Assembly: GCA_040221055.1 (NCBI GenBank)
Contig: JAVJVN010000012.1
Span: 1 to 48,889, forward strand
Length of the DNA: 48,889 bases
Direction of reading: 5' to 3'
Source of the DNA: Rhodothermales bacterium
Lineage (GTDB): Bacteria > Bacteroidota > Rhodothermia > Rhodothermales > UBA10348
Notes under the pieces: generated by a model
Told to the model about the DNA's origin: nothing
Seen by the model: only the letters and a program-made list of their open reading frames with translations
The model's database searches: none
Translations under genes and position numbers: made by a program
Shown: positions 5,610 to 27,199 of the stretch, piece by piece
How the letters are laid out: each line of letters starts with the position of its first letter
Numbering within the stretch: the stretch's first letter is position 1

Positions 5610-5876
5610 ATGGAAACGACAACACAGAGAAACGCCCGTAAGGAAAGGGTTGGCGTTGTGGTGAGCGACAAGATGGACAAGTCCATCACGGTAGCCATCG
5701 AACGCCGGATGAAGCATCCGATCTACGGCAAGTTCGTCAAGAAGACGTCGAAGATCATGGCTCATGACGAAGAGAACACCGCCGGAACCGGCGATACCGT
5801 TCGAGTCATGGAGACGCGTCCGCTCAGCAAGAACAAGCGTTGGAGACTCGTCGAAATCGTCGAGCGGGCCAAGTAA
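5610..5876 (+). CDS. rpsQ: 30S ribosomal protein S17
   Basis: 88 residues, OB-fold S17. Seen: [45 protein letters not shown] in pieces along residues 10-55, then [23 protein letters not shown]. The motif KMDKTI/KMDKSI and the HPxYGKFV segment are diagnostic. S17 binds the lower body of 16S rRNA early in assembly. The 64-base upstream gap contains an 8-bp stem-loop that could affect its translation. Confidence 0.97.
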
Positions 5877-5906
5877 GACCACCAACCCAATCCAAGTGCC
5901 AAAGAA

Positions 5907-6275
5907 ATGATTCAGCAGGAATCCAGACTCAAAGTCGCGGACAACAGCGGAGCCAAGGAAGTGCTTTGCATCCGCGTTCTTGGTGGCAGCGGACGTCGTT
6001 ACGCCCGTATCGGTGACCAGATTGTCGTCTCCGTGAAGTCAGCCATTCCGGGCGGAAACGTCAAGAAAGGTGATGTCTCGAAGGCGGTCATCGTTCGTAC
6101 CAAGAAAGAATATCGCCGCCCTGACGGGACATACATCCGCTTCGACGAGAACGCGGCTGTATTGCTCAACGCCCAGGGCGAACCTCGTGGAACACGCATT
6201 TTCGGCCCGGTAGCGCGCGAGCTTCGTGAGCGCCAGTACATGCGCATTGTTTCCCTCGCACCCGAAGTATTGTAA
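5907..6275 (+). CDS. rplN: 50S ribosomal protein L14
   Basis: 122 residues, the standard L14 length. [37 protein letters not shown] in pieces at the N-terminus, then [20 protein letters not shown] and the terminal [11 protein letters not shown] are classic. L14 forms an intersubunit bridge and is the docking site of the silencing factor RsfS. It follows rpsQ by 30 bases and precedes rplX by 12. Confidence 0.98.
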
Positions 6276-6287
6276 ACCCCAGACGTC

Positions 6288-6644
6288 ATGCCACGGACGA
6301 AGAACAAGCAGAACAAGCTCCATATCCGTAAAGGGGATATCATTCGTGTGCTGTCCGGTAATGATCGCGGCAAGGAAGGAAAAATCCTCCGCGTATTTCC
6401 GGAAAAGCATCGTGTGATTGTCGAGGGTGTGAATGTGCGCATCCGCCATACCCGCCCGAACCAGATGTATCCCCAAGGTGGACGCATTGAGCAGGAGATG
6501 CCCATCCATGCATCGAATGTCATGCCCCTTGACGGGAACGGCGAGCCCACGCGGATTGGTCGCAAGAAGATCGAGGATCCTGAAACCGGCCGCGGCCGCT
6601 GGGTCCGTTATGCAAAGACGACCGGCGAGGAGCTGGACAGCTAA
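6288..6644 (+). CDS. rplX: 50S ribosomal protein L24
   Basis: 118 residues, slightly longer than the E. coli protein. The KOW motif is clear in [23 protein letters not shown] (residues about 11-33), followed by [15 protein letters not shown] and a C-terminal region with [21 protein letters not shown]24 is an early assembly initiator of the large subunit. rplE follows after 14 bases. Confidence 0.97.
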
Positions 6645-6658
6645 AATATTGGAATCCC

Positions 6659-7234
6659 ATGGACGGTTACGTACCTAGACTCAAACAACACTACCGGGGC
6701 GAGATCATCGGCTCCATGACGAAGCAATTCGGCTATGAGAATCCGATGCAGGTTCCGAAGCTGGTGAAGATTGCCATCAACAAAGGTGTTGGTGAAGCGT
6801 CCCTGAACAAGAAGATCCTGGACGATGCGATCGAGGAGATCCGCACCATCACCGGGCAGCAGCCGACGGTCCGCATGGCCCGCAAGGCCGTGTCGAACTT
6901 CAAGCTTCGTGAAGGGATGGCCATCGGGGCAGCGGTTACCCTCCGGGGTGATCGGATGTACGAATTCCTGGATCGGTTGGTCACGCTGGCGCTGCCACGT
7001 GTTCGCGACTTCCGGGGTATCCCGGACAAGAGCTTCGATGGCCGTGGCAACTACACGCTCGGCATCAAGGAGCAGATCATTTTCCCGGAAATCAACGTGG
7101 ACAAGACGGACCGGATTTCCGGTCTGGATGTGACCTTCGTTACCACCGCTGAAACCGACGAGGAGGCTTTTGCCCTCTTGAAGGCTTTCGGTATGCCCTT
7201 CATCCGGCGCGGCGAAGAAGCAGAAGCTGTTTAA
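6659..7234 (+). CDS. rplE: 50S ribosomal protein L5
   Basis: 191 residues. [31 protein letters not shown], the central [32 protein letters not shown] (in pieces, residues about 65-97) and [15 protein letters not shown] are L5 hallmarks. L5 binds 5S rRNA and forms the B1b bridge to S13. The ATG at 6659 gives [12 protein letters not shown], a reasonable start; 6716 is too far in. rpsN follows after 15 bases. Confidence 0.97.
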
Positions 7235-7249
7235 GAACACACAAACATC

Positions 7250-7519
7250 ATGGCAAAGAAAAGTTGGATAGCCCGCGAGAAGAAGCGCGAACGCATGGTC
7301 GCCCAGTACGCCGATCGGCGTAAGGCGCTCAAGAAGGCGCTGGACTCTGAGGGATTGCAGAAGCTGCCCAGGGATGCTAGCCCGGTCCGTATGCGGAACC
7401 GGTGCAAGCTGACCGGTCGGTCGCGCGGCTACATCCGTCGCTTCGGATTGAGCCGGATTGCTTTCCGGGAAATGGCACTGGCGGGTCTCATCCCCGGTGT
7501 CCGTAAATCAAGCTGGTAG
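7250..7519 (+). CDS. rpsN: 30S ribosomal protein S14, zinc-independent form
   Basis: 89 residues. [17 protein letters not shown] at the start and [39 protein letters not shown] at the end are S14. Only one cysteine is present (in NRCKLTG); the CxxC pairs of the short zinc-binding form are missing, and the length matches the C-minus class. The position inside the spc operon suggests that this is the main S14 and not a zinc-starvation paralogue. Confidence 0.97.
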
Positions 7520-7588
7520 GAACCTCCTGCCGCTTCGTTCACGTGGTCAAGCGCTACGGCGAACTGACCGCAACACGAGACAAGAAAA

Positions 7589-7987
7589 ATGAACGTAGTT
7601 GATCCAGTTGCAGACATGCTGACGCGTATAAGAAACGCACAGCAAGCCTCGCATCGACATGTGGATATTCCTGCTTCCAAGTTGAAGCGTGCCGTAACCC
7701 AGATCCTTCTGGACAAGGGGTACATCCGTCGCTACATCGACATCGATGATGACAAGCAGGGACTTATCCGCATCTACCTCAAGTACAGCAAGAAGGGTAC
7801 TCCGGTTATCCAGAACCTGAAACGGGTTTCCACGCCCGGTTTGCGTACGTACGTCAATGCTGACGATCTGCCCCGCGTGCGGAACGGTCTGGGTATTGCC
7901 ATCATTTCCACATCCCGTGGCGTGATGACCGACAAGGAAGCCCGTCTCCACCACATTGGTGGGGAAGTGTTGGCCTACGTCTACTAG
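7589..7987 (+). CDS. rpsH: 30S ribosomal protein S8
   Basis: 132 residues, the usual length. [20 protein letters not shown] at the N-terminus and the C-terminal [37 protein letters not shown] with a final GGEVLAYVY are diagnostic. S8 organises the central domain of 16S rRNA and in E. coli represses the spc operon. It is preceded by a 69-base gap in which I see only a weak inverted repeat. Confidence 0.97.
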
Positions 7988-19797: not shown

Positions 19798-20376
19798 CTA
19801 CGGTTCGATGGTCACCGGAAACGTGACGTCGATATCTGTCTCGTCACTCTGATTGACGCCGTCCTTCGGGTCGTCGTCGAAGTGACTGAGGATGACGCGC
19901 AGGGATGCCTGACCAGCTCCACCGGATGTCGTTGCCACGGTGAATGCAAGACCCACGGGCAAGCCATTGCTGTCCGAGTCGGTGACGGTGACCGACAGGC
20001 GCGAGGCATCCTGGCCACCAGGCAGGAAGAAGAACTGGTGCTCATCGGCTTCCTCGTCGATCTCTGCGCCCACGTTTTCCCCATTCACATCGTCGAACAC
20101 ACCGATCGTACCGGTATACGTTACGCCCGCCTTGAGCACCAGTGTTCCGATGGTCAGATTGGCTCCGTCACCGTCGGGATCCGTAGCCTCCACAACGACC
20201 TGTGGGGCCTGTGGTGAGGTGAGTGTCAGTTGGATGCGAGTAATCAACTCCTCGTCTCCTGCACCGTGATCGTCCGGTTCCGTGGAGTCACACCCGGAGG
20301 CGGAAAGGGCCACGATCAGGGCCGCGGAGAGAAGAAGAGGGAAGTGAAAGCGCTGGATTGGAAAAAGGGTATTCAT
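19798..20376 (-). CDS. Lipoprotein linked to the TonB-dependent receptor
   Basis: 192 residues. The signal peptide ends LIVALSASGC, a lipobox, followed by DSTEPDDHGAGDE. The mature part is a beta-rich domain with ITRIQLTLTS, ATDPDGDGANLTIGTLVLKAGVTYTG, an acidic stretch and a final HFDDDPKDGVNQSDETDIDVTFPV. I recognise this as the small Bacteroidota lipoprotein family often found next to TonB-dependent receptors of metal loci, but no function is established. It begins 14 bases after the receptor stop on the same strand, so it is the last gene of the operon. It may be an outer-membrane partner that captures metal; the many Asp/Glu and two His near the end fit that idea but do not prove it. Confidence 0.85.
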   Translation of the reverse strand: MNTLFPIQRFHFPLLLSAALIVALSASGCDSTEPDDHGAGDEELITRIQLTLTSPQAPQVVVEATDPDGDGANLTIGTLVLKAGVTYTGTIGVFDDVNGENVGAEIDEEADEHQFFFLPGGQDASRLSVTVTDSDSNGLPVGLAFTVATTSGGAGQASLRVILSHFDDDPKDGVNQSDETDIDVTFPVTIEP

Positions 20377-20390
20377 GATGGTATTAAGGT

Positions 20391-22724
20391 TCAGGATCCG
20401 GCACCGAACGACAGCTGCATCCGCAGCGATACATTCCGTCCCGGATCGTCAATGAAATAGCGAAAGCGACTCATGTAGTCGCGATAAGCGGTGTCAAAAA
20501 CGTTGTTGACATCCAAAGACCAAGAGAGGGGTGTCGACCCGCGTGTCCAGCTACCGGAGATTCCGGCATTGACCAGGGAGTAACCGGGAGGCGGCGGCGC
20601 ATAGTCCACACCTTCCGGGATTCTGTCCTGTTGCTTCACGGCGATGATATCCAGGTGGAGGCTGGTCGGACGCTCCGAACCCGAAAGGAATCGGGGAGAC
20701 CACTCCACGCCTCCACGGATGCGGTCCGCGGGCATCTCCACCAGTGCTTCGCCAGACTCCCGGTCGGTTCCACGAACAATCGACGACGTCACATGGACAT
20801 CCAGTCGATCGGTAAGATGGACCTCGATCCAGCCGTCCAGACCCTTCAACGTCGCATTCTTCTGGACGTAGTGGAAGGCCGGGAACGTACCCCGGATGGT
20901 CACGCGGGGCTCATCATCCGGAAAGAGGAATATGTATCCGTCCATGCGGTTCCGGAAGGCACTCAGCTCGGCGGTGACTCCATCGGAGGTGTGCCGGAGT
21001 GTGACATCCAGGTTCCAGGACTGTTCGACACCCAGATCCGGATTTCCGGTCTCGAACTGGGCCGTGCCGTGGTGGACTCCATAGTTGAACAATTCGTTCA
21101 CGCCGGGAGGTCGCCAGGCATGTCCCAGGTTCGATGACACAGACCAGGAGGGATCCATGCGCCAGATGACCCCGGCGATGGCCGACAGGCTGCCATACGT
21201 GGCATCGTGACGGACAAAGGGTCCACTGGACAGGTTTTCCCTTGGCCAGGCACGCAGCCAGCGATGATCGTACCGCAATCCGGCATCGAACGTCCAGGCA
21301 TCCGTGACGAACATCTCATGGATGAAGGCGCCCACCGTCGTGGCCCGGAAATTGGGAATCAGGAAACCGGACTCCCCGTTGTGGTTGCCCTGGGTGGTCG
21401 CGGAAAGACCGATTGAGCCGATGAGGCCACCACGCGGACGCTGCCGCAGCTGGACTTCAGCCGAACTCGTCTGCAGGGTAAGGGAGAATGCCGGATCCGT
21501 ATCCGGATCACCGAACCGACGATGCGCATCGAACTCGCTTCGCCGGTTCGACTGGAACCCCAATTGGGCGTCAATCCAGTCTCCCGAGGAAAGCCGGATG
21601 TGCCCATTCAGGGAAATCGCGTCGTGCGAAATCCGTTGTTTTGGCGCCGAAATATCATACGTGAACGCATAATCAACGGCTGGCTGGCCGCGCTCGATGG
21701 CCCGGAGGAGGTCGTCGAAGTTGCCGATATGGGCACCGGAAAACAGGCCGAGGGTGGTTCCGAAGTGCGACACGTGCAGACGGAATCCGGCACGATTCGA
21801 GTGGAAGCCCACGGTCGCTGCGGCGTCGAGTTCCTGGAAGCCCGAGTTGCCGATGACGTAGTCGGGCGTCCGCGAATCGCCGGCTTTCCGGGCGCTCGTG
21901 CGCACCCGCCAGGCCCACTTCGACCCCAGGCCGCTGAATACACTGGCCGACACCGCCCCGTGGCGGTTGTTGGAGAACGCATTCAGGGCCAGGTCGGCAC
22001 CCAGACCACGGTCATAGGGCAGCTCTTCCGGCTCAATCCGGATGACGCCACCAATGGCTCCGACGCCGTATTCGACCGAGGCCGCACCCCGGATGACTTC
22101 CACGCGCCCCGCCGAGAACGGATCGATCTCCGGGGCATGTTCACCGCCCCATTGCTGACCTTCCTGCTGGACCCCGGCGTTCACGACCACGAGTCGCTGG
22201 CTGTGCAACCCCCGGATGACCGGTTTTGCAATGGAAGGCCCCGTCGACAATACGGAGACGCCCGGAAGCTCGGAAAGCATGGCCCCGATGGTCTGTCCGC
22301 GGGACCGATCCAGGTCTTCCGGCGCCAGGATGGACACCGAACGCGTGGACCGCTTCAGCATGGCATCGGCTTGTCCCTCGGCTGTAATGACGGTTTCCGC
22401 GAGGTCCACCCGGGCCTCCTGCATGACGACATTCACCACGGTTTCTCCGGCCACCACGTCCACGAGCCTGTTTTCCGTTCGGAATCCGACGAACCGGAAC
22501 TCCAGCGAAACGGGCTCGAGAGGCAGTTTATCCAAGAACCATCGGCCCCCCTCGTCGGTAACGGTGCCCCGATCCAGACGCTCCACAACCACCTGGACCA
22601 ACTCCAGAGGCGCGCCATCGGTCGTGGTAACACGACCGACAAGCGTCTGGGCATGGGCGGTGGTTGAAAGGGAAAACAGGAGGATGGCCAACAGGAGCCA
22701 GCCCCGTTTTTTCAACGGTATCAT
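20391..22724 (-). CDS. TonB-dependent outer-membrane receptor, probable zinc/metal receptor
   Basis: 777 residues. A signal peptide ends TTAHA-QT. An N-terminal carboxypeptidase-regulatory-like beta domain (about residues 27-105, LVGRVTTTDGAPLELVQVVVE) is followed by the plug (about 120-235; DLDRSRGQTIGAMLSELPGV, VIRGLHSQRLVVVNAGV, VEVIRGAASVEYGVGAIGGVI) and a beta-barrel ending in RNVSLRMQLSFGAGS, without the classic terminal aromatic residue. Two sequences rich in His (HIGNFDD, NRHGAVS and EHAPEID after GQQWGGEH) are scattered. The GEHAPEID segment after the plug resembles ZnuD-type receptors. With the ABC importer upstream this supports zinc as substrate; manganese or a siderophore-type ligand remain possible. 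Confidence 0.88.
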   Translation of the reverse strand: MIPLKKRGWLLLAILLFSLSTTAHAQTLVGRVTTTDGAPLELVQVVVERLDRGTVTDEGGRWFLDKLPLEPVSLEFRFVGFRTENRLVDVVAGETVVNVVMQEARVDLAETVITAEGQADAMLKRSTRSVSILAPEDLDRSRGQTIGAMLSELPGVSVLSTGPSIAKPVIRGLHSQRLVVVNAGVQQEGQQWGGEHAPEIDPFSAGRVEVIRGAASVEYGVGAIGGVIRIEPEELPYDRGLGADLALNAFSNNRHGAVSASVFSGLGSKWAWRVRTSARKAGDSRTPDYVIGNSGFQELDAAATVGFHSNRAGFRLHVSHFGTTLGLFSGAHIGNFDDLLRAIERGQPAVDYAFTYDISAPKQRISHDAISLNGHIRLSSGDWIDAQLGFQSNRRSEFDAHRRFGDPDTDPAFSLTLQTSSAEVQLRQRPRGGLIGSIGLSATTQGNHNGESGFLIPNFRATTVGAFIHEMFVTDAWTFDAGLRYDHRWLRAWPRENLSSGPFVRHDATYGSLSAIAGVIWRMDPSWSVSSNLGHAWRPPGVNELFNYGVHHGTAQFETGNPDLGVEQSWNLDVTLRHTSDGVTAELSAFRNRMDGYIFLFPDDEPRVTIRGTFPAFHYVQKNATLKGLDGWIEVHLTDRLDVHVTSSIVRGTDRESGEALVEMPADRIRGGVEWSPRFLSGSERPTSLHLDIIAVKQQDRIPEGVDYAPPPPGYSLVNAGISGSWTRGSTPLSWSLDVNNVFDTAYRDYMSRFRYFIDDPGRNVSLRMQLSFGAGS

Positions 22725-22799
22725 GGACGGGAAATCAGAGTGAACAAAGGGGGTCGGCCGGGATGGATCCCGGATCGGGTCAACACGCCTCGGGCGCGG

Positions 22800-23174
22800 T
22801 CAGACGCCCTGGTTCACTGGAGGTCCTCGTGTCCGGAGACCGTTACCCCGATCCTGTCCCTGCAGGCGGCCGGAGTCGGCATGCACTTCATTCCGCATGC
22901 CGGACGGAACGGTGAACGGGATGGCAGACGGACCCAAGGATGTCGTCGTACGCTGGTGGAACACACATTGCGTGTGGTCGACGGACGAATGATGACGTTC
23001 GAATGCCGTCTGGTGCTCATGGTGCGGACAATGCGCGCTGGATTCCTGCTCGTGATCGGCAGGATGATGCAGTGCATCGTGCAGGTTCGGAATCAGTCCA
23101 CCACCAACCAGAAGGCCAATGGCGAGCAGGGGGCTGAGGATAGCCGTGCATATGACAGATCGGAAGACACGCAT
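22800..23174 (-). CDS. Small exported histidine-rich protein
   Basis: 124 residues. A basic start and hydrophobic segment (VICTAILSPLLAIGLLVGGGL, about residues 7-27) look like a signal peptide or single anchor. Residues 32-73 hold twelve histidines and two cysteines (patches LHDALHH, HCPHHEH, FERHHSSVDHTQC). The C-terminal 50 residues are of ordinary composition. No family is recognised. The place between znuB and the receptor gene, same strand, suggests a periplasmic or membrane-tethered metal-binding or -ferrying protein. It could instead be a low-constraint ORF, because GC-rich DNA has many long frames; its position, start and signal argue for a real gene. Confidence 0.6.
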   Translation of the reverse strand: MRVFRSVICTAILSPLLAIGLLVGGGLIPNLHDALHHPADHEQESSAHCPHHEHQTAFERHHSSVDHTQCVFHQRTTTSLGPSAIPFTVPSGMRNEVHADSGRLQGQDRGNGLRTRGPPVNQGV

Positions 23175-23211
23175 GATTGCATGCTAATGCACGCTTGCTC
23201 CCGGGGGTTCC

Positions 23212-24027
23212 TCAGGGACGTCGGATACCGAAATACAGCAGGAAGGCCACGATCTGGCTCAGGACGATCGCCGCACCGGAGGGGATATTGAAGACCCAGG
23301 AAGCATGCAAGCCGGCCATGGTGGCCACCACCGAAAGAACAATGGCCGACAGCATCATGGTCGAGAAGCGACGGGATCGGAGCCGCGCGGCCGCAGGCGG
23401 TATGACGAGCCAAGCGGAGACCAGAAGGATGCCGACCATTTTGATGGAGACGACGATGACCAACGCGACAAAGACCGTAAGCAATAGACTGTCCCGTCCG
23501 GTATGGAGGCCCTGAGCTCGGGCCGACTCATCGTCGAATGTGGCGTAAGCCCATCGTCCCCATAGTCGTGGCAGCGTCAACAGACTGAGAAGAGCCAGTC
23601 CGCAGACCAACCAGAGATCCGCCGGACTTACGGCAAGGATGGACCCGAACAGGTACGAAGCCGCGTCCATGGTGGAGCCGGTCCTGAGCGACAGGAACAG
23701 TACGCCCAGAGCAACGGACAGCGAGAAAAAGATGCCGATGGCGGTGTCATCGGCCAGATCGGTGGCTTGGCGGATCCAGTGGATGCCCGCTGCAACGAGC
23801 ACCGTGAATGGCAAGGCAATCCAGAGCGGTTCGACACCTGTCAACAAACCGGCCGCAATGCCTCCGAACGCCGCGTGCGCGAGGCCGGCACCCAGGAAGC
23901 TCATTTTTCGCTGTACGACAAACGAACCGAAATACCCGCCCAAAGAAGCCAGCAGGATGCCGATGACCAGGGCGCGCTGCATGAAGGGAACCCCGAGCCA
24001 ATCGAAAGCAAACAGATCAATGCCCAT
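23212..24027 (-). CDS. znuB: Zinc/manganese ABC transporter permease
   Basis: 271 residues from ATG 24027 (MGIDLFAFDWLGVPFM); a longer frame upstream lies within znuC. About eight or nine hydrophobic segments are seen, with the family pattern GSFVVQRKMSFLGAGLAHAAFGG near residues 33-55, and SIKMVGILLVSAWLVIPPAAA (about residues 204-224). This is an ABC-3 type permease forming the inner-membrane channel. It overlaps the end of znuC by 11 bases, so the two are coupled. Family members carry zinc, manganese or iron; the context favours zinc. Confidence 0.94.
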   Translation of the reverse strand: MGIDLFAFDWLGVPFMQRALVIGILLASLGGYFGSFVVQRKMSFLGAGLAHAAFGGIAAGLLTGVEPLWIALPFTVLVAAGIHWIRQATDLADDTAIGIFFSLSVALGVLFLSLRTGSTMDAASYLFGSILAVSPADLWLVCGLALLSLLTLPRLWGRWAYATFDDESARAQGLHTGRDSLLLTVFVALVIVVSIKMVGILLVSAWLVIPPAAARLRSRRFSTMMLSAIVLSVVATMAGLHASWVFNIPSGAAIVLSQIVAFLLYFGIRRP

Positions 24028-24739
24028 GTTGGCCTCCCACGACATCGTGCGCATGACCCACATGCCCGAAGGCCTCACGGACCGCACTGTCCGTGAGCGC
24101 CGCTCCGGGTGCTCCCGACGACACCACGCGCCGGTTCAGCAGCACCACGGACGACGCGTGATGATACGCCACATCCCAGTCGTGCGTGACCATGACGATG
24201 GTGGCCTGGTGCTGTCTCCTGTAGGTCTCCAGGATATCGAACAAATCCAATGCACCAGCCCGGTCGACACCCGCTTCCGGTTCATCCAGAATGAGGAGCG
24301 GAGGCGAACAGGCGACCGCCCGCGCCAGGTAGACGCGCTGGAGTTCGCCTCCGGACAGACGGGCCAGGGGTGCCGAGGCCAATTTCTCGGCACCCACTTT
24401 TTCCAGGGCGGCCTGTGCAATGCGACGATCTTCCTTGCCGAGACGAAGGGGCCACCGCCCCAATCGACCACTGGCCACCAATTCGAGGGCCGTAGCGGGA
24501 AATGCGCGATCCAGGGTTTTGACCTGGGGTACGTACCCGACGACGGCGTTGCCCGTTTCGGATTCAATGGTCCCCGAGACCAGCGGGACCAGGCCCAGGA
24601 TGGCCCGGATAAGCGTCGACTTTCCGCCGCCATTCGGCCCCAGGATGGCTACGAAATCGCCTCTTTCCGCCCGGAATCGTACGGAATCAAGAATCAGGCG
24701 ACCGCCCAACCGGACGGTGATGTCATTGACGTGCAGCAT
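24017..24739 (-). CDS. znuC: Zinc/manganese ABC transporter ATPase
   Basis: 240 residues. Walker A GPNGGGKST (34-42), Q-loop PQVKTLDRAFP (about 71-81), signature LSGGELQ (128-134), Walker B LLILDEP (148-154) and the switch His in VTHDWD are complete. The C-terminal end HVGHAHDVVGGQHGH holds four histidines, a frequent feature of metal ABC ATPases in this family. The gene overlaps both neighbours, znuA by 17 bases and znuB by 11. Confidence 0.96.
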   Translation of the reverse strand: MLHVNDITVRLGGRLILDSVRFRAERGDFVAILGPNGGGKSTLIRAILGLVPLVSGTIESETGNAVVGYVPQVKTLDRAFPATALELVASGRLGRWPLRLGKEDRRIAQAALEKVGAEKLASAPLARLSGGELQRVYLARAVACSPPLLILDEPEAGVDRAGALDLFDILETYRRQHQATIVMVTHDWDVAYHHASSVVLLNRRVVSSGAPGAALTDSAVREAFGHVGHAHDVVGGQHGH

Positions 24740-25625
24740 GGACGCGTGAAATCAGGTCCCGGATGTACGCATCGTAATGTGCGTGCCCCGAGCCCACGGG
24801 TTCAACTGGGGTGACGGTCAGTCCGTTGTCCATGGCAAACTGTTTCAATCCGCTGTCATTCAAGATGGTTTGCGTCAGTAGTCCGACGGCCGCTGACGTC
24901 GCGGCCTTGTTGGCGACCGCGTCCAGCGTAGACGGTGCATGCATTTGCCCGGGGACCGATTGGAGGGGGCCAAGATAGGGAACGTCATAGCGATCCAGGA
25001 GCGGAATCAGGAAGGGGAGTGCAAGGACAACCGGAGGTCGATCCGTCTGTTCGCCGAACAAGGTCCGGGCCCAGCGGTCCAGTTCCTTCCATACGACCGT
25101 GAGCGAATCGGCCCGATACCGGATTCCGTCACAGTCGTCGGGAAAGAGGCCGCAAAGGTCTGCAGCAACCACCGGAATGCCCTCGGCAAAGTGGACGGGA
25201 TCCATCCAGACATGGGCGTCCTCCGAGTGGTCATGCGCATGGCCTGTTGGGCTGTGGCCGCTTGCGTCACGAGTGATCTCACCGTCCTGTTGGTCCTGGA
25301 ACACAAATCGCACCGGGTCGGCGGTCATCCTTTCGAACCACCCGTCTATGTCAGGGTGCAGGGCAATCCGGATCCGGGCCCGGGCCAGAAGGATGGCGTC
25401 GGACGGCCGTGGTTCGAATCCGTGGGGCGATGCGCCGTCGGGAAGCAGGACCCGTACGTCCGCATCCATCCCTGCCAGCGGTTCCACCAGATGCGCCGCG
25501 ACAGGCATGCTTACGACAATCAGCGGACGTTCATCGGAATCCTCCTGTGCCGGCGGGCTGCAGGAGGAAAGGACCGCCAGGACGAGCGGCACCAGTAACC
25601 GGAACGGGATGGCCCTTGAATTCAT
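24723..25625 (-). CDS. znuA: Zinc/manganese ABC transporter substrate-binding lipoprotein
   Basis: 300 residues. Lipobox LSSC with the lipidated Cys at 22, then an acidic linker. The family core shows H68 (PHGFEP), a histidine-rich loop with HAHDH (129-133) and H138-V-W (DAHVWMDP), and later metal-site candidates near the C-terminal half, including GSGHAHYDAY. The metal-binding ligands are consistent with cluster A-I solute-binding proteins for zinc or manganese. The His-rich loop favours zinc. The start overlaps the stop of the upstream epimerase by four bases (ATGA). Confidence 0.94.
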   Translation of the reverse strand: MNSRAIPFRLLVPLVLAVLSSCSPPAQEDSDERPLIVVSMPVAAHLVEPLAGMDADVRVLLPDGASPHGFEPRPSDAILLARARIRIALHPDIDGWFERMTADPVRFVFQDQQDGEITRDASGHSPTGHAHDHSEDAHVWMDPVHFAEGIPVVAADLCGLFPDDCDGIRYRADSLTVVWKELDRWARTLFGEQTDRPPVVLALPFLIPLLDRYDVPYLGPLQSVPGQMHAPSTLDAVANKAATSAAVGLLTQTILNDSGLKQFAMDNGLTVTPVEPVGSGHAHYDAYIRDLISRVHAARQ

Positions 25626-26599
25626 GTCAGTGACGCTGCAATACGTTCCACCGTCTGCGCAAACGGGCGGGGGGCGAACGCCAGTTCGCGCCCCGCCTTG
25701 CTGTTGTCATAGCACGACATGGAGGTGGACAAACGCGCTGTTTCCCTGGTGATGAGCGGTTTCTTTCCCGTCAGGCGGGCGGCGGTTTCAAGGAAGAATG
25801 CAGCCGTCATGAGCAGGCCGGACGGAAGGGGTGCGCGCGGAGGACGGACACCGAATGCGCAGGCGTAGGATTCCAGGATGTACTTCCAGGGCAGATTGTG
25901 TCCTGAAAGAAGGTAACGTTCCCCCGTCCGGCCGGCATCGCCGGCCGCGATCATCCCCTCGACAACATCGTCCACATCCACGACATTCGTGCTTCCGGGG
26001 GGCATGAATGGCAACTTTCCGTCCCGGACCTGCGCGGCAATCTGGGTCGTGTTTTCACCTTCCCGACCCGGTCCAATGACCAGGGAAGGGTTGACAATGA
26101 CGGCATCCAGACCCTCGGCAATACCCCGGTGGACTTCCAGTTCAGCCAGGTATTTGGAATGGGCATATTCCGTGTTGAGACGCGACGGCGTCCACGAAGC
26201 CGACTCGTCCAGGCAGTCCGTGCTTCGCTCACTCCGACCGAGTGCCGCAATGCTTGAGGTATGGACGAATCGACCGACTCCGGCGTCCAGGCAAGCGTCC
26301 ACCATGGATGCGGTGCCCTCCACGTTTACCCGTCTGAGTTGGTCGCGGCTCCGGGGGCCCCCGAAGCCGAGCCATGCGGCACAGTGGAAGACCCGGTCCA
26401 CACCGGCCAATGCATCCTGCAGCATCTCCTTGTCGAAGAGATCTCCGGTGTACCACGACACGTCGGCGCCGCAACTGCCGATCAGGTCATCCGATGACGT
26501 CGAACGGCGGAGCGCACGGACGTCGTGCCCCTGACCAACAAGGTGACAGACCAGACGGGAACCCAGGAATCCGGTCGCACCGGTAACGAAAATGGTCAT
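25622..26599 (-). CDS. NAD-dependent epimerase/dehydratase family protein
   Basis: 325 residues. The Rossmann glycine motif TGATGFLGS (6-14) and the catalytic pattern Tyr-x-x-x-Lys in YAHSKYLAE (about residue 145-153) are present, with a Ser/Thr in the preceding VHTSSIAALG. This is an extended short-chain dehydrogenase, similar to dihydroflavonol-4-reductase-like and sugar/steroid-epimerase proteins; the substrate cannot be told. It overlaps the biotinyl protein and znuA by four bases on either side (ATGA), so it is translated with both. Confidence 0.9.
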   Translation of the reverse strand: MTIFVTGATGFLGSRLVCHLVGQGHDVRALRRSTSSDDLIGSCGADVSWYTGDLFDKEMLQDALAGVDRVFHCAAWLGFGGPRSRDQLRRVNVEGTASMVDACLDAGVGRFVHTSSIAALGRSERSTDCLDESASWTPSRLNTEYAHSKYLAELEVHRGIAEGLDAVIVNPSLVIGPGREGENTTQIAAQVRDGKLPFMPPGSTNVVDVDDVVEGMIAAGDAGRTGERYLLSGHNLPWKYILESYACAFGVRPPRAPLPSGLLMTAAFFLETAARLTGKKPLITRETARLSTSMSCYDNSKAGRELAFAPRPFAQTVERIAASLT

Positions 26600-27093
26600 G
26601 ATTCGAATTCGATCAGGACCTGGGCCTTCGTCACGGCGTCTCCGGCCTGGACCCGGACGGACCGGACCGTTGCGCCTTTTTCGGCGCGGAGTTCGTTTTC
26701 CATTTTCATGGCCTCCAGCACAAGGAGCGGCTGACCGACATCGACGGTCTCACCGTCCGACACCAGGACGGACAGCACCAGCCCGGGCATGGGAGCCACC
26801 AGTTCCAGCACTTCTGAATCTCCGCCGGCCGCGAATCCCCATTCAGCCAACAATTGATCCCGCTCATCCTGGACGGTTGCCGAGAAGACCCGGTTGCCGG
26901 ACCAGAGCCGGATATCCCGTTTTCCGACATACTCCACCGTCACGGGCATGCAGGTCCCGCGGAACCGGAGCAGATAGTGATGATCCCGGACGCGGATCAA
27001 TCCGGTGTCAGACGGATCATGTGCACCGGGATCCACAGGAAGAGCCGCAGCGGCATCCAGTTCAACCAGATAGGGCGTCTTGGAGTCAGGCAT
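26596..27093 (-). CDS. Biotinyl (biotin/lipoyl-attachment) carrier protein
   Basis: 165 residues from ATG 27093 (MPDSKTPYLV); an upstream frame extends to 27168 without family similarity. The C-terminal 80-residue barrel holds the biotinylation motif EAMKMEN (127-133, Lys130), preceded by APMPGLVLSVLVSDGETVDVGQPLLVLE. The N-terminal half is a less conserved domain seen in the carrier subunit of acyl-CoA carboxylases in Bacteroidota. No carboxylase subunit is adjacent, so the partner is elsewhere. It is the first gene of a tightly overlapped run that continues into the zinc importer. Confidence 0.9.
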   Translation of the reverse strand: MPDSKTPYLVELDAAAALPVDPGAHDPSDTGLIRVRDHHYLLRFRGTCMPVTVEYVGKRDIRLWSGNRVFSATVQDERDQLLAEWGFAAGGDSEVLELVAPMPGLVLSVLVSDGETVDVGQPLLVLEAMKMENELRAEKGATVRSVRVQAGDAVTKAQVLIEFES

Positions 27094-27112
27094 GTTGGAG
27101 GTGGGTATAGTG

Positions 27113-27127
27113 ACGTCCGGAGGACGT
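27113..27127. promoter_or_regulatory. 15-base palindrome between the biotinyl gene and pfkA
   Basis: ACGTCC GGA GGACGT is a perfect dyad with a 3-base centre. It sits 20 bases upstream of the biotinyl protein start and about 118 bases upstream of pfkA, in a divergent intergenic region where an operator or promoter would be expected. It could be a repressor site or just a hairpin. Nothing shows which regulator. Confidence 0.35.
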
Positions 27128-27166
27128 GGTACGATGCCCTGTCGGCGGGTGTTTCTACATATATTC

Positions 27167-27199
27167 AAGCCGTCCGGAGAACTGTTTGCCCTCCGGCTT
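27167..27199 (+). promoter_or_regulatory. Stem-loop in the pfkA leader
   Basis: AAGCC+GGAG pairs with CTCCGGCTT (27191-27199), with a four-base bulge (GTCC) on the 5' side and an 11-base loop. It ends 45 bases before pfkA ATG. A TATATT-like element (27160-27165) lies just before it, but no good -35 matches. Possible leader structure; not a terminator, since no T-run follows. Confidence 0.25.

Follow-up and report, generated by a model that had tools for sequence, protein, structure and literature searches.

A candidate metal-sensing arrest leader before a ZnuD-like receptor, joined to a ZnuABC-type importer in one Rhodothermales genus

What might explain why, in a Rhodothermales bacterium, the genes of a ZnuABC-type metal importer are followed by a small histidine- and cysteine-rich open reading frame (ORF), a TonB-dependent receptor and a lipoprotein? 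The six ORFs all lie on the minus strand and span positions 19798-25625 of the window, by which we mean the whole stretch of DNA analysed (48,889 nucleotides of contig JAVJVN010000012.1); the source genome comprises 3.32 Mb in 22 contigs and is 99.5% complete. ORF and Pfam scans bear out the original prediction as regards six genes on one strand, their order and the overlaps within the ABC part. On sequence grounds we consider it rather probable that this is an uptake locus for zinc (or another transition metal), in which a ZnuABC-type importer is combined with a leader/receptor/lipoprotein cassette whose leader would exert control through translation arrest. The importer would be the ordinary part, and the fourth gene, the small ORF, is more likely the switch: by sequence and by analogy, its most likely role is that of a CruR-like leader that senses metal through translation arrest, and not that of a component of transport. 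Judged by gene order, the locus is two units joined in one genus, a ZnuA-ZnuC-ZnuB importer by hpnA and a three-gene outer-membrane cassette (small His/Cys ORF, ZnuD-like TonB receptor and lipoprotein) that is, from profile matches, spread across the phylum. The features are as follows.

24723..25625, minus strand: ZnuA-like periplasmic metal-binding lipoprotein, 300 amino acids (PF01297, 101 bits against a cut-off of 29)
24017..24739, minus strand: ZnuC-like ABC ATPase, 240 amino acids (PF00005 ABC_tran)
23212..24087, minus strand: ZnuB-like permease, 291 amino acids, with an alternative start ATG at 24027 (PF00950 ABC-3, 218 bits against a cut-off of 20.1)
22800..23174, minus strand: small His/Cys-rich ORF, 124 amino acids, with a signal-like N-terminus; proposed metal-sensing arrest leader, from its RGPP end, CVFH spacing and cassette layout
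22956..22967, minus strand: CVFH codons, proposed part of the metal-sensing site, 42 residues before RGPP
22818..22829, minus strand: RGPP codons, proposed arrest site (RAPP/RGPP are reported as arrest motifs in PMC10987492 and PMC12992588)
22803..22819, minus strand: leader arm of a proposed RNA helix, beneath a ribosome stalled at RGPP; pairs with 22738-22754
22738..22754, minus strand: the other arm of this proposed RNA helix, in the start region of the receptor gene, 14-30 bases ahead of its ATG (22724)
20391..22724, minus strand: ZnuD-like TonB-dependent receptor, 777 amino acids, with a carboxypeptidase-regulatory-like N-terminal domain (Plug and TonB barrel by Pfam)
19798..20376, minus strand: lipoprotein, 192 amino acids, SGC-DSTEPDD, of a family nearly always behind the cassette receptor

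In the mechanism that we infer, the metal would be captured by the ZnuD-like receptor together with the lipoprotein, which probably sits on the cell surface; TonB energy would move the metal into the periplasm, and from there the ZnuA-like protein with ZnuBC would carry it into the cell. When metal is scarce, the ribosome translating the His/Cys leader would stall at RGPP and cover mRNA that is otherwise paired with the receptor start, so that the receptor and lipoprotein would be made. Metal binding to the nascent chain, through CxxC/CxxH and histidine residues about 42 residues back and near the tunnel exit, would relieve the stall, the helix would form and the receptor would be shut off. 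The features that we read in the sequence for this proposal are gene order, conservation of the cassette, a motif with its spacing, an RNA complementarity specific to position, and the ligand positions of ZnuD.

Gene order and conservation place the two units apart in most genomes (genus, family and order are here those of the source genome, and the genus sample is four, the window and L055-L057). The six-gene order is kept in 4/4 genus genomes, window counted, and since it recurs in the three others it is more than chance. Among 60 genomes, the source genome included, a znuA-like gene was matched in 36 and the lipoprotein in 22, and most family loci fetched hold biotin, hpnA, znuA, znuC and znuB together. 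In the 12 of 20 other family genomes that are readable for at least 3 kb behind znuB, no leader, receptor or lipoprotein match was found (12/12). The lipoprotein occurs in three of the 23 family genomes outside the genus (G010, G019 and G022), on contigs other than that of znuA, and in other families the receptor-lipoprotein pair sits elsewhere, several times by def-ruvX-hup (L061, L064, L067 and L071). Because the joined order is present in all genus genomes while the units are apart outside it, the conservation is real but shallow: the predicted six-gene system keeps its order in the genus and not in the 12 readable relatives, and it is not one old system. In another genus of the family, with under 3 kb readable (L209 of G024), znuB is closely followed, on the other strand (4-1452), by a gene for a TonB receptor that is 31% identical to the one of the window. 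The cassette itself is much wider. A profile of the lipoprotein family (24 aligned rows), run against 394 genomes of the phylum, matched in 83, and in 37/40 lipoprotein loci taken from those 83 a receptor lies directly upstream on the same strand, a count that includes two loci with gaps of 1.6 and 2.3 kb and three fragmentary receptors. At the level of the order, the receptor is directly upstream of the lipoprotein in 19/20 loci.

The small ORF is reminiscent of CruR of Bordetella pertussis. CruR is described as a metal-sensing upstream ORF (uORF) before a TonB receptor, in which CXXC and a C-terminal RAPP are 45 residues apart, RAPP is taken as the cause of arrest, and copper on the nascent chain relieves the arrest and thereby controls the receptor (PMC9426467). 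TonB-related RAPP/RGPP uORFs are reported as universal in Gram-negatives (PMC12992588). CruR-CrtA (formerly bp2923-bfrG; DUF2946) shares with the cassettes here a short uORF whose exported product carries a Cys motif and a RAPP-type end, with the TonB receptor next, and the distance from Cys motif to RAPP is 45 residues there and 41-45 here. The ORF of the window has a signal-like N-terminus, 13 His and the C-terminal end LRTRGPPVNQGV (RGPPVNQGV). A survey of leaders took in 63 sequences, 54 of them usable, the nine others lacking a lipoprotein or receptor, having a receptor that is not upstream, or missing the N-terminus. The motif [RHQ][GAS]PP stands in the last 22 residues of the ORF upstream of the receptor in 40/54 cassettes, compared with 54/3441 ORFs of 60-250 amino acids from the same loci, true leaders included. 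A Cys-pair motif precedes the RGPP-type motif by 41-45 residues in 34 of the 40, as C-x-x-C in 30 and, in the genus, as C-x-x-H/Q in 4. When the leaders are counted from the motif, a single column beyond the ending and the Cys spacing reaches 40% identity. The Pfam scan placed the window ORF in no family above cut-off and gave no DUF2946 match; PF11162 (DUF2946) scores 21.8 bits, against a cut-off of 23.7, in 1/10 leaders, and 18.3 bits in L112.

Stalling on SecM opens the start of secA. If stalling likewise opens the receptor start, the start region should be complementary to the mRNA that the ribosome covers during the stall. RAPP arrest is reported to place the second Pro in the A site (PMC10951233), so that the 18 bases from that codon are the stretch covered by a stalled ribosome. 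These 18 bases were paired with receptor bases -30 to +9 and compared with dinucleotide shuffles in 37/40 cassettes, three being left out at this offset because their arms would overlap. At the matched offset the mean z is -1.08 (standard error 0.26) and 15/37 fall below -1.64, statistics that ignore kinship, with one locus per genome; at 12 other offsets, from -96 to +48, the mean z runs from -0.25 to +0.28 and at most 5/40 fall below -1.64. The leader-start energy averages -12.1 kcal/mol in matched pairs vs -8.2 kcal/mol in mismatched ones, and 0/20,000 permutations were as good; the permutation ignores base composition common to a locus, which the shuffles and the offset control account for. 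In steps of 3 bases, with the three siblings of the window left out, the signal extends from -3 to +9 and peaks at +3, and on the start side the peak is at -20 to -1. In the window itself, the best five of 120 leader windows start -9 to +3 from the second Pro codon. The pairing sequences vary by lineage, being AGTGAAC/GTTCACT in the window and CCAGCCATAG/CTATGGCTGG in L060. An earlier run, with a mean z of -1.13 and 17/40, allowed the arms to overlap in loci with short gaps and is superseded by the non-overlapping test. An exported RGPP-type ORF lies upstream in 2/28 plug proteins of the genome: besides the cassette, a second, different TonB receptor (L166, G000:C14 near 485552) has a 165-amino-acid exported ORF ending LRGPPVV 44 bases upstream, and the pairing of that leader with its start region is borderline (z -1.6).

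The receptor points to zinc. Its best PDB match is ZnuD 4rdr (E 3e-25), the next being at 5e-11, and ZnuD of Neisseria (PMC4557270) is the closest solved receptor. Residues E195-H196 and H551 of the window receptor align with D99-H100 and H499 of ZnuD, on the assumption that the chain numbers printed in the alignment are shifted by 14. Across 46 aligned cassette receptors (the window and 45/62 loci, the others having no same-strand receptor ORF above 600 amino acids in the ORF choice used), the D99 position holds E in 43 (the window among them) and D in the other 3, and both H100 and H499 positions are His in 46/46, so that the ligands of ZnuD are kept as E/D-H and H. Other conserved histidines are at 332 (45/46), 367 (46/46) and 552 (45/46). 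The position of E340, the fourth ZnuD ligand, is outside the local alignments; the conserved His332 might fill that role. Of the other plug-domain proteins of the genome, 0/27 combine the E/D-H pair with the His, 1/27 (L187) has E-H and 1/27 (L167) has a His at position 551; two of the 27 reads (L177 and L181) have no hidden Markov model score and are probably in the wrong frame. The cassette receptor differs from ZnuD in its extra N-terminal domain and in the lipoprotein and leader paired with it. With 133 bits on the ZnuD model of NCBIfam (NF038289, cut-off 950), it is named ZnuD-like and is not assigned to ZnuD. A predicted structure of the receptor had a pLDDT of 43.5 and was set aside.

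A number of results, told here and with the metal below, weigh against the reading of the locus as a zinc-type cassette under an arrest leader. No motif ORF was found in 14/54 cassettes. The window leader has CVFH, 42 residues before RGPP, in place of the CXXC of CruR. Of 12 small ORFs from other loci (L061 twice), two are near DUF2946, both below cut-off, and one of these, in L112, ends RAAP and not R[GAS]PP. The helix is uneven in the genus, with z of -2.6 in the window, -1.7 in L057, 0.0 in L056 and +1.3 in L055, two of three siblings thus being nil, and 22/37 cassettes individually miss z -1.64. Masking the footprint in ensemble predictions lowers the pairing of the start region modestly, from 0.41 to 0.38, in the window, and from a mean of 0.58 to 0.50 over 35 cassettes, again with the three siblings left out; taken alone, the intergenic region of the window folds about as expected (z -0.63). 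The likeliest of the rival explanations, unlikely as we judge it, is that the small ORF is an arrest leader as proposed and acts through Rho-dependent termination, which CruR is reported to use (PMC9426467), with the helix unused. The cassettes that show no significant helix would suit it, but the helix signal is seen, among the offsets tested, solely at the one on which a stalled ribosome would act.

Zinc is probably the metal of the cassette, to judge from the receptor and the neighbouring genes. In L115 and L118 the next gene behind the lipoprotein encodes a ZigA-like GTPase (about 310 bits on NF038288, under the cut-off of 600), and L109 has a third cobW-type gene close to its cassette. 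Part of COG0523 is said to have been linked to zinc in a published study. In the source genome no GTPase is clearly of ZigA type (the top cobW match reaches 31.5 bits, vs 163-186 beside cassettes elsewhere), which is a further point on the other side. CxxC can bind zinc and copper alike. It is conceivable, and a shade less likely than the use of Rho, that the cassette is a copper cassette as in Bordetella, its leader sensing copper, its receptor importing copper chelates, and the adjacency to znuABC in one genus being incidental. The leader has the layout of CruR, which senses copper as CrtA imports it (PMC12914433), and the L128 cassette stands among genes that read, by eye, like heavy-metal handling. 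Yet the receptor is closer to ZnuD (E 3e-25; 133 bits) than to the copper porin OprC (E 1.4e-5) or to the TonB-copper model (53 bits), a comparison made without CrtA; the second Cys is His or Gln in the genus leaders; and the neighbours are ZigA-like and znuABC genes.

It is improbable, though still to be weighed, that the receptor imports haem or a metallophore complex in place of the bare ion, and that the ABC genes are a separate zinc/manganese importer in the same run. The haem subfamily TIGR01785 is the best NCBIfam model for the receptor, at 180 bits vs 133 for ZnuD, both below cut-off, which makes haem a live rival. The ZnuD site is reported to overlap the haem site of HasR, although ZnuD, the closest solved relative, is reported not to bind haem (PMC4557270); a His of PhuR aligns with H196 of the receptor, but PhuR has Asn at the H551 position, in a weak alignment. 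The least probable explanation is that the small ORF encodes a transport protein, periplasmic or secreted, that binds metal and whose RGPP end and RNA pairing are side effects: its signal-like N-terminus and 13 His, and the exported zinc-uptake protein ZepA (PMC10957091), speak for this, but little is kept beyond the ending and the Cys spacing, and the RNA signal does not extend beyond the stretch that a stalled ribosome would cover. The original prediction had taken this His-rich exported protein as an extra transport component, and the CruR layout and the footprint signal favour an arrest leader instead. What stands of the predicted import route across both membranes is the transport itself, which would run from outer membrane to cytoplasm with zinc as the best guess; the His-rich protein is not likely a part of it.

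How might zinc entry be controlled in such genomes? We suggest, as something closer to a conjecture than the reading of this one locus, that in much of the Bacteroidota a zinc-sensing nascent leader arrested at RGPP/RAPP frees the start of a ZnuD-like receptor from a helix that is kept in position and variable in sequence, and that this may replace Zur in single-Fur lineages such as the source order. The regulators found in the source genome are one Fur-family protein and one of DtxR type; there is also one ZIP-type match. One Fur-family protein per genome is found in 11/12 family and order genomes (G019 has two), and two or three in 7/8 other phylum genomes, for which reason a claim of a phylum without Zur was dropped. 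Near the cassettes, the genome's own Fur as query gave one weak match to a Fur-family gene (L127, E 7e-4) in 62 loci. The original prediction proposed looking for Zur-type sites upstream, and none stood out. The palindrome TGCAT-N4-ATGCA (TGCATNNNNATGCA, 23178-23191), the sole one tested, would by chance turn up 1.2 times in the window; it lies upstream of the small ORF and is seemingly common to the siblings, and as a Zur operator it was rejected for being at chance level. The sequences upstream of 18 cassettes and of 29 znuA genes, read by eye, gave no operator motif that we would claim. In Riemerella, several TonB receptors are reported to change in a zntR mutant (PMC11960050).

The lipoprotein is likely a surface capture protein for the receptor, an assignment that we draw from its place and its anchor region. 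It matched no family above cut-off in Pfam and NCBIfam scans; its predicted model is all-beta and of low confidence (mean pLDDT 54.8), and gave no Foldseek match at or below 1e-3. Behind the lipid-bearing Cys stand acidic or His-rich residues, CDSTEPDD in the window and CGINDHDHDHDQDH or CKSHDHDHEHGA elsewhere, and some other cassette lipoproteins are of CSDDD or CKKDD types. Surface lipoproteins of Bacteroidetes are described as carrying an export signal of acidic residues right after the lipobox Cys, and the residues here are near, and not identical to, the published consensus (PMC5080379). In L116, L129, L130 and L132 a His/Asp-rich stretch comes immediately after the lipidated Cys, as though metal were bound by the anchor segment. 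L073 has two tandem copies of the lipoprotein and no receptor match within the 16 kb fetched, and L118 has an exported ORF of 761 amino acids (5681-7966) between receptor and lipoprotein. MerC-like membrane protein genes lie directly upstream of the receptor in L109-L112, L132 and L136 (upstream of the small ORF in L112 and L136), the assignment being Pfam-checked for three of the six loci; no R[GAS]PP leader was found in L109, L110 and L132, and the small ORF of L112 is the one ending RAAP.

The importer is of a familiar kind. ZnuA, ABC ATPase and ABC-3 permease domains are present together by Pfam, which is what identifies a ZnuABC-type metal ABC importer, and at this level the window has all three subunits in common with the ZnuABC, AztABC and MntABC importers. 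It differs from them in scores below the NCBIfam equivalog cut-offs (ZnuA 32/268, ZnuC 158/306 and ZnuB 147/284 bits), the best models for the ATPase being MntA, AztA, an anchored-repeat type and ZnuC, each under cut-off. The znuA-like protein is a single match in the source genome, and it matches zinc/manganese binding proteins in the PDB (best E 6.5e-8). ZnuA proteins have a ligand set of three His. In an alignment with 29 related loci, the first and second are kept and the third is Leu in 4/4 genus members, a further difference from the known importers and one more point against, or neutral for, zinc. His occupies this position in 9/30 aligned rows, and across the family (window, L026-L051) it is Leu, Gln, Glu, His, Ser, Gly or Thr. 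A His-rich loop lies ahead of HVWMDP, and the variable third ligand may mean an altered specificity or metal binding through that loop.

A metal-sensing arrest leader before a TonB receptor is a known kind of system. CruR-CrtA works with copper and Rho termination (PMC9426467, PMC12914433), whereas here there are a ZnuD-like receptor and a lipoprotein, and RNA pairing is suggested; the leaders are below the DUF2946 cut-off, the second Cys of the genus is replaced by His/Gln, and the run continues from znuABC. CutF of Rhodobacter capsulatus is described as likewise an exported metal-sensing leader with a Cys motif, a proline-rich end and RNA that shields the next start, but it switches a copper oxidase on in response to copper (PMC9973294), and here an uptake receptor would be expected on at low metal. 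With the arrest peptides ApdA, ApdP and SecM (PMC10951233, PMC10987492, PMC12992588) the leader has the C-terminal R-A/G-P-P in common, in motif and position only. In the parts covered, the RAPP/RGPP survey PMC12992588 is silent on a ZnuD-like family, on a lipoprotein partner, on RNA pairing and on zinc, a word that its main text does not contain. The original prediction saw a dedicated receptor as going beyond the known ZnuABC plus ZnuD set; a TonB receptor gene adjoining a zinc ABC importer is already described for znuK-znuGHI of Caulobacter crescentus, which is Zur-controlled and for which the passages covered describe no leader or lipoprotein (PMC4176598). Searches of the open-licence literature found no paper joining an arrest peptide, a TonB-dependent receptor and zinc, and none joining a TonB-dependent receptor, zinc, znuABC, Bacteroidetes and a lipoprotein. 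The receptor family, its probable metal, the lipoprotein partner, the joining to znuABC and the position-locked pairing are, within the portions of that literature covered, not described. Arrest peptides that sense metal are known in Proteobacteria, from copper systems. If our reading is true, a widespread Bacteroidota version, gating a zinc-type receptor through a position-locked RNA switch, would extend them to a further metal, phylum and mechanism, would offer a means of controlling zinc entry in genomes with no recognised Zur, and would give the lipoprotein family a place beside the receptor. What most TonB-related RAPP/RGPP leaders sense is not settled in the survey as far as covered (PMC12992588), and the cassette makes the question directly testable.

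The six genes are embedded in a longer run. Two further ORFs precede them.

25622..26599, minus strand: hpnA-like sugar epimerase gene, in 4-base overlap with znuA (TIGR03466, 247 bits, under the cut-off of 368)
26596..27168, minus strand: biotin-carrier-like ORF, in 4-base overlap with the hpnA-like gene (EAMKMENE in the translation)

We take EAMKMENE in the second of these to be a biotin-type motif. As the run extends upstream through the 4-base overlaps into both ORFs, the six genes probably do not make up an operon by themselves. Within the ABC part, znuA and znuC overlap by 17 bases, and znuC and znuB by up to 71, or by 11 if the ATG at 24027 is the start. The opposite flank of the run is occupied by def, ruvX, hup and relA on the plus strand. 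In most family loci the hpnA-like and biotin-carrier-like ORFs precede znuABC, beside pfkA where this is seen, and they have no obvious functional link to it.

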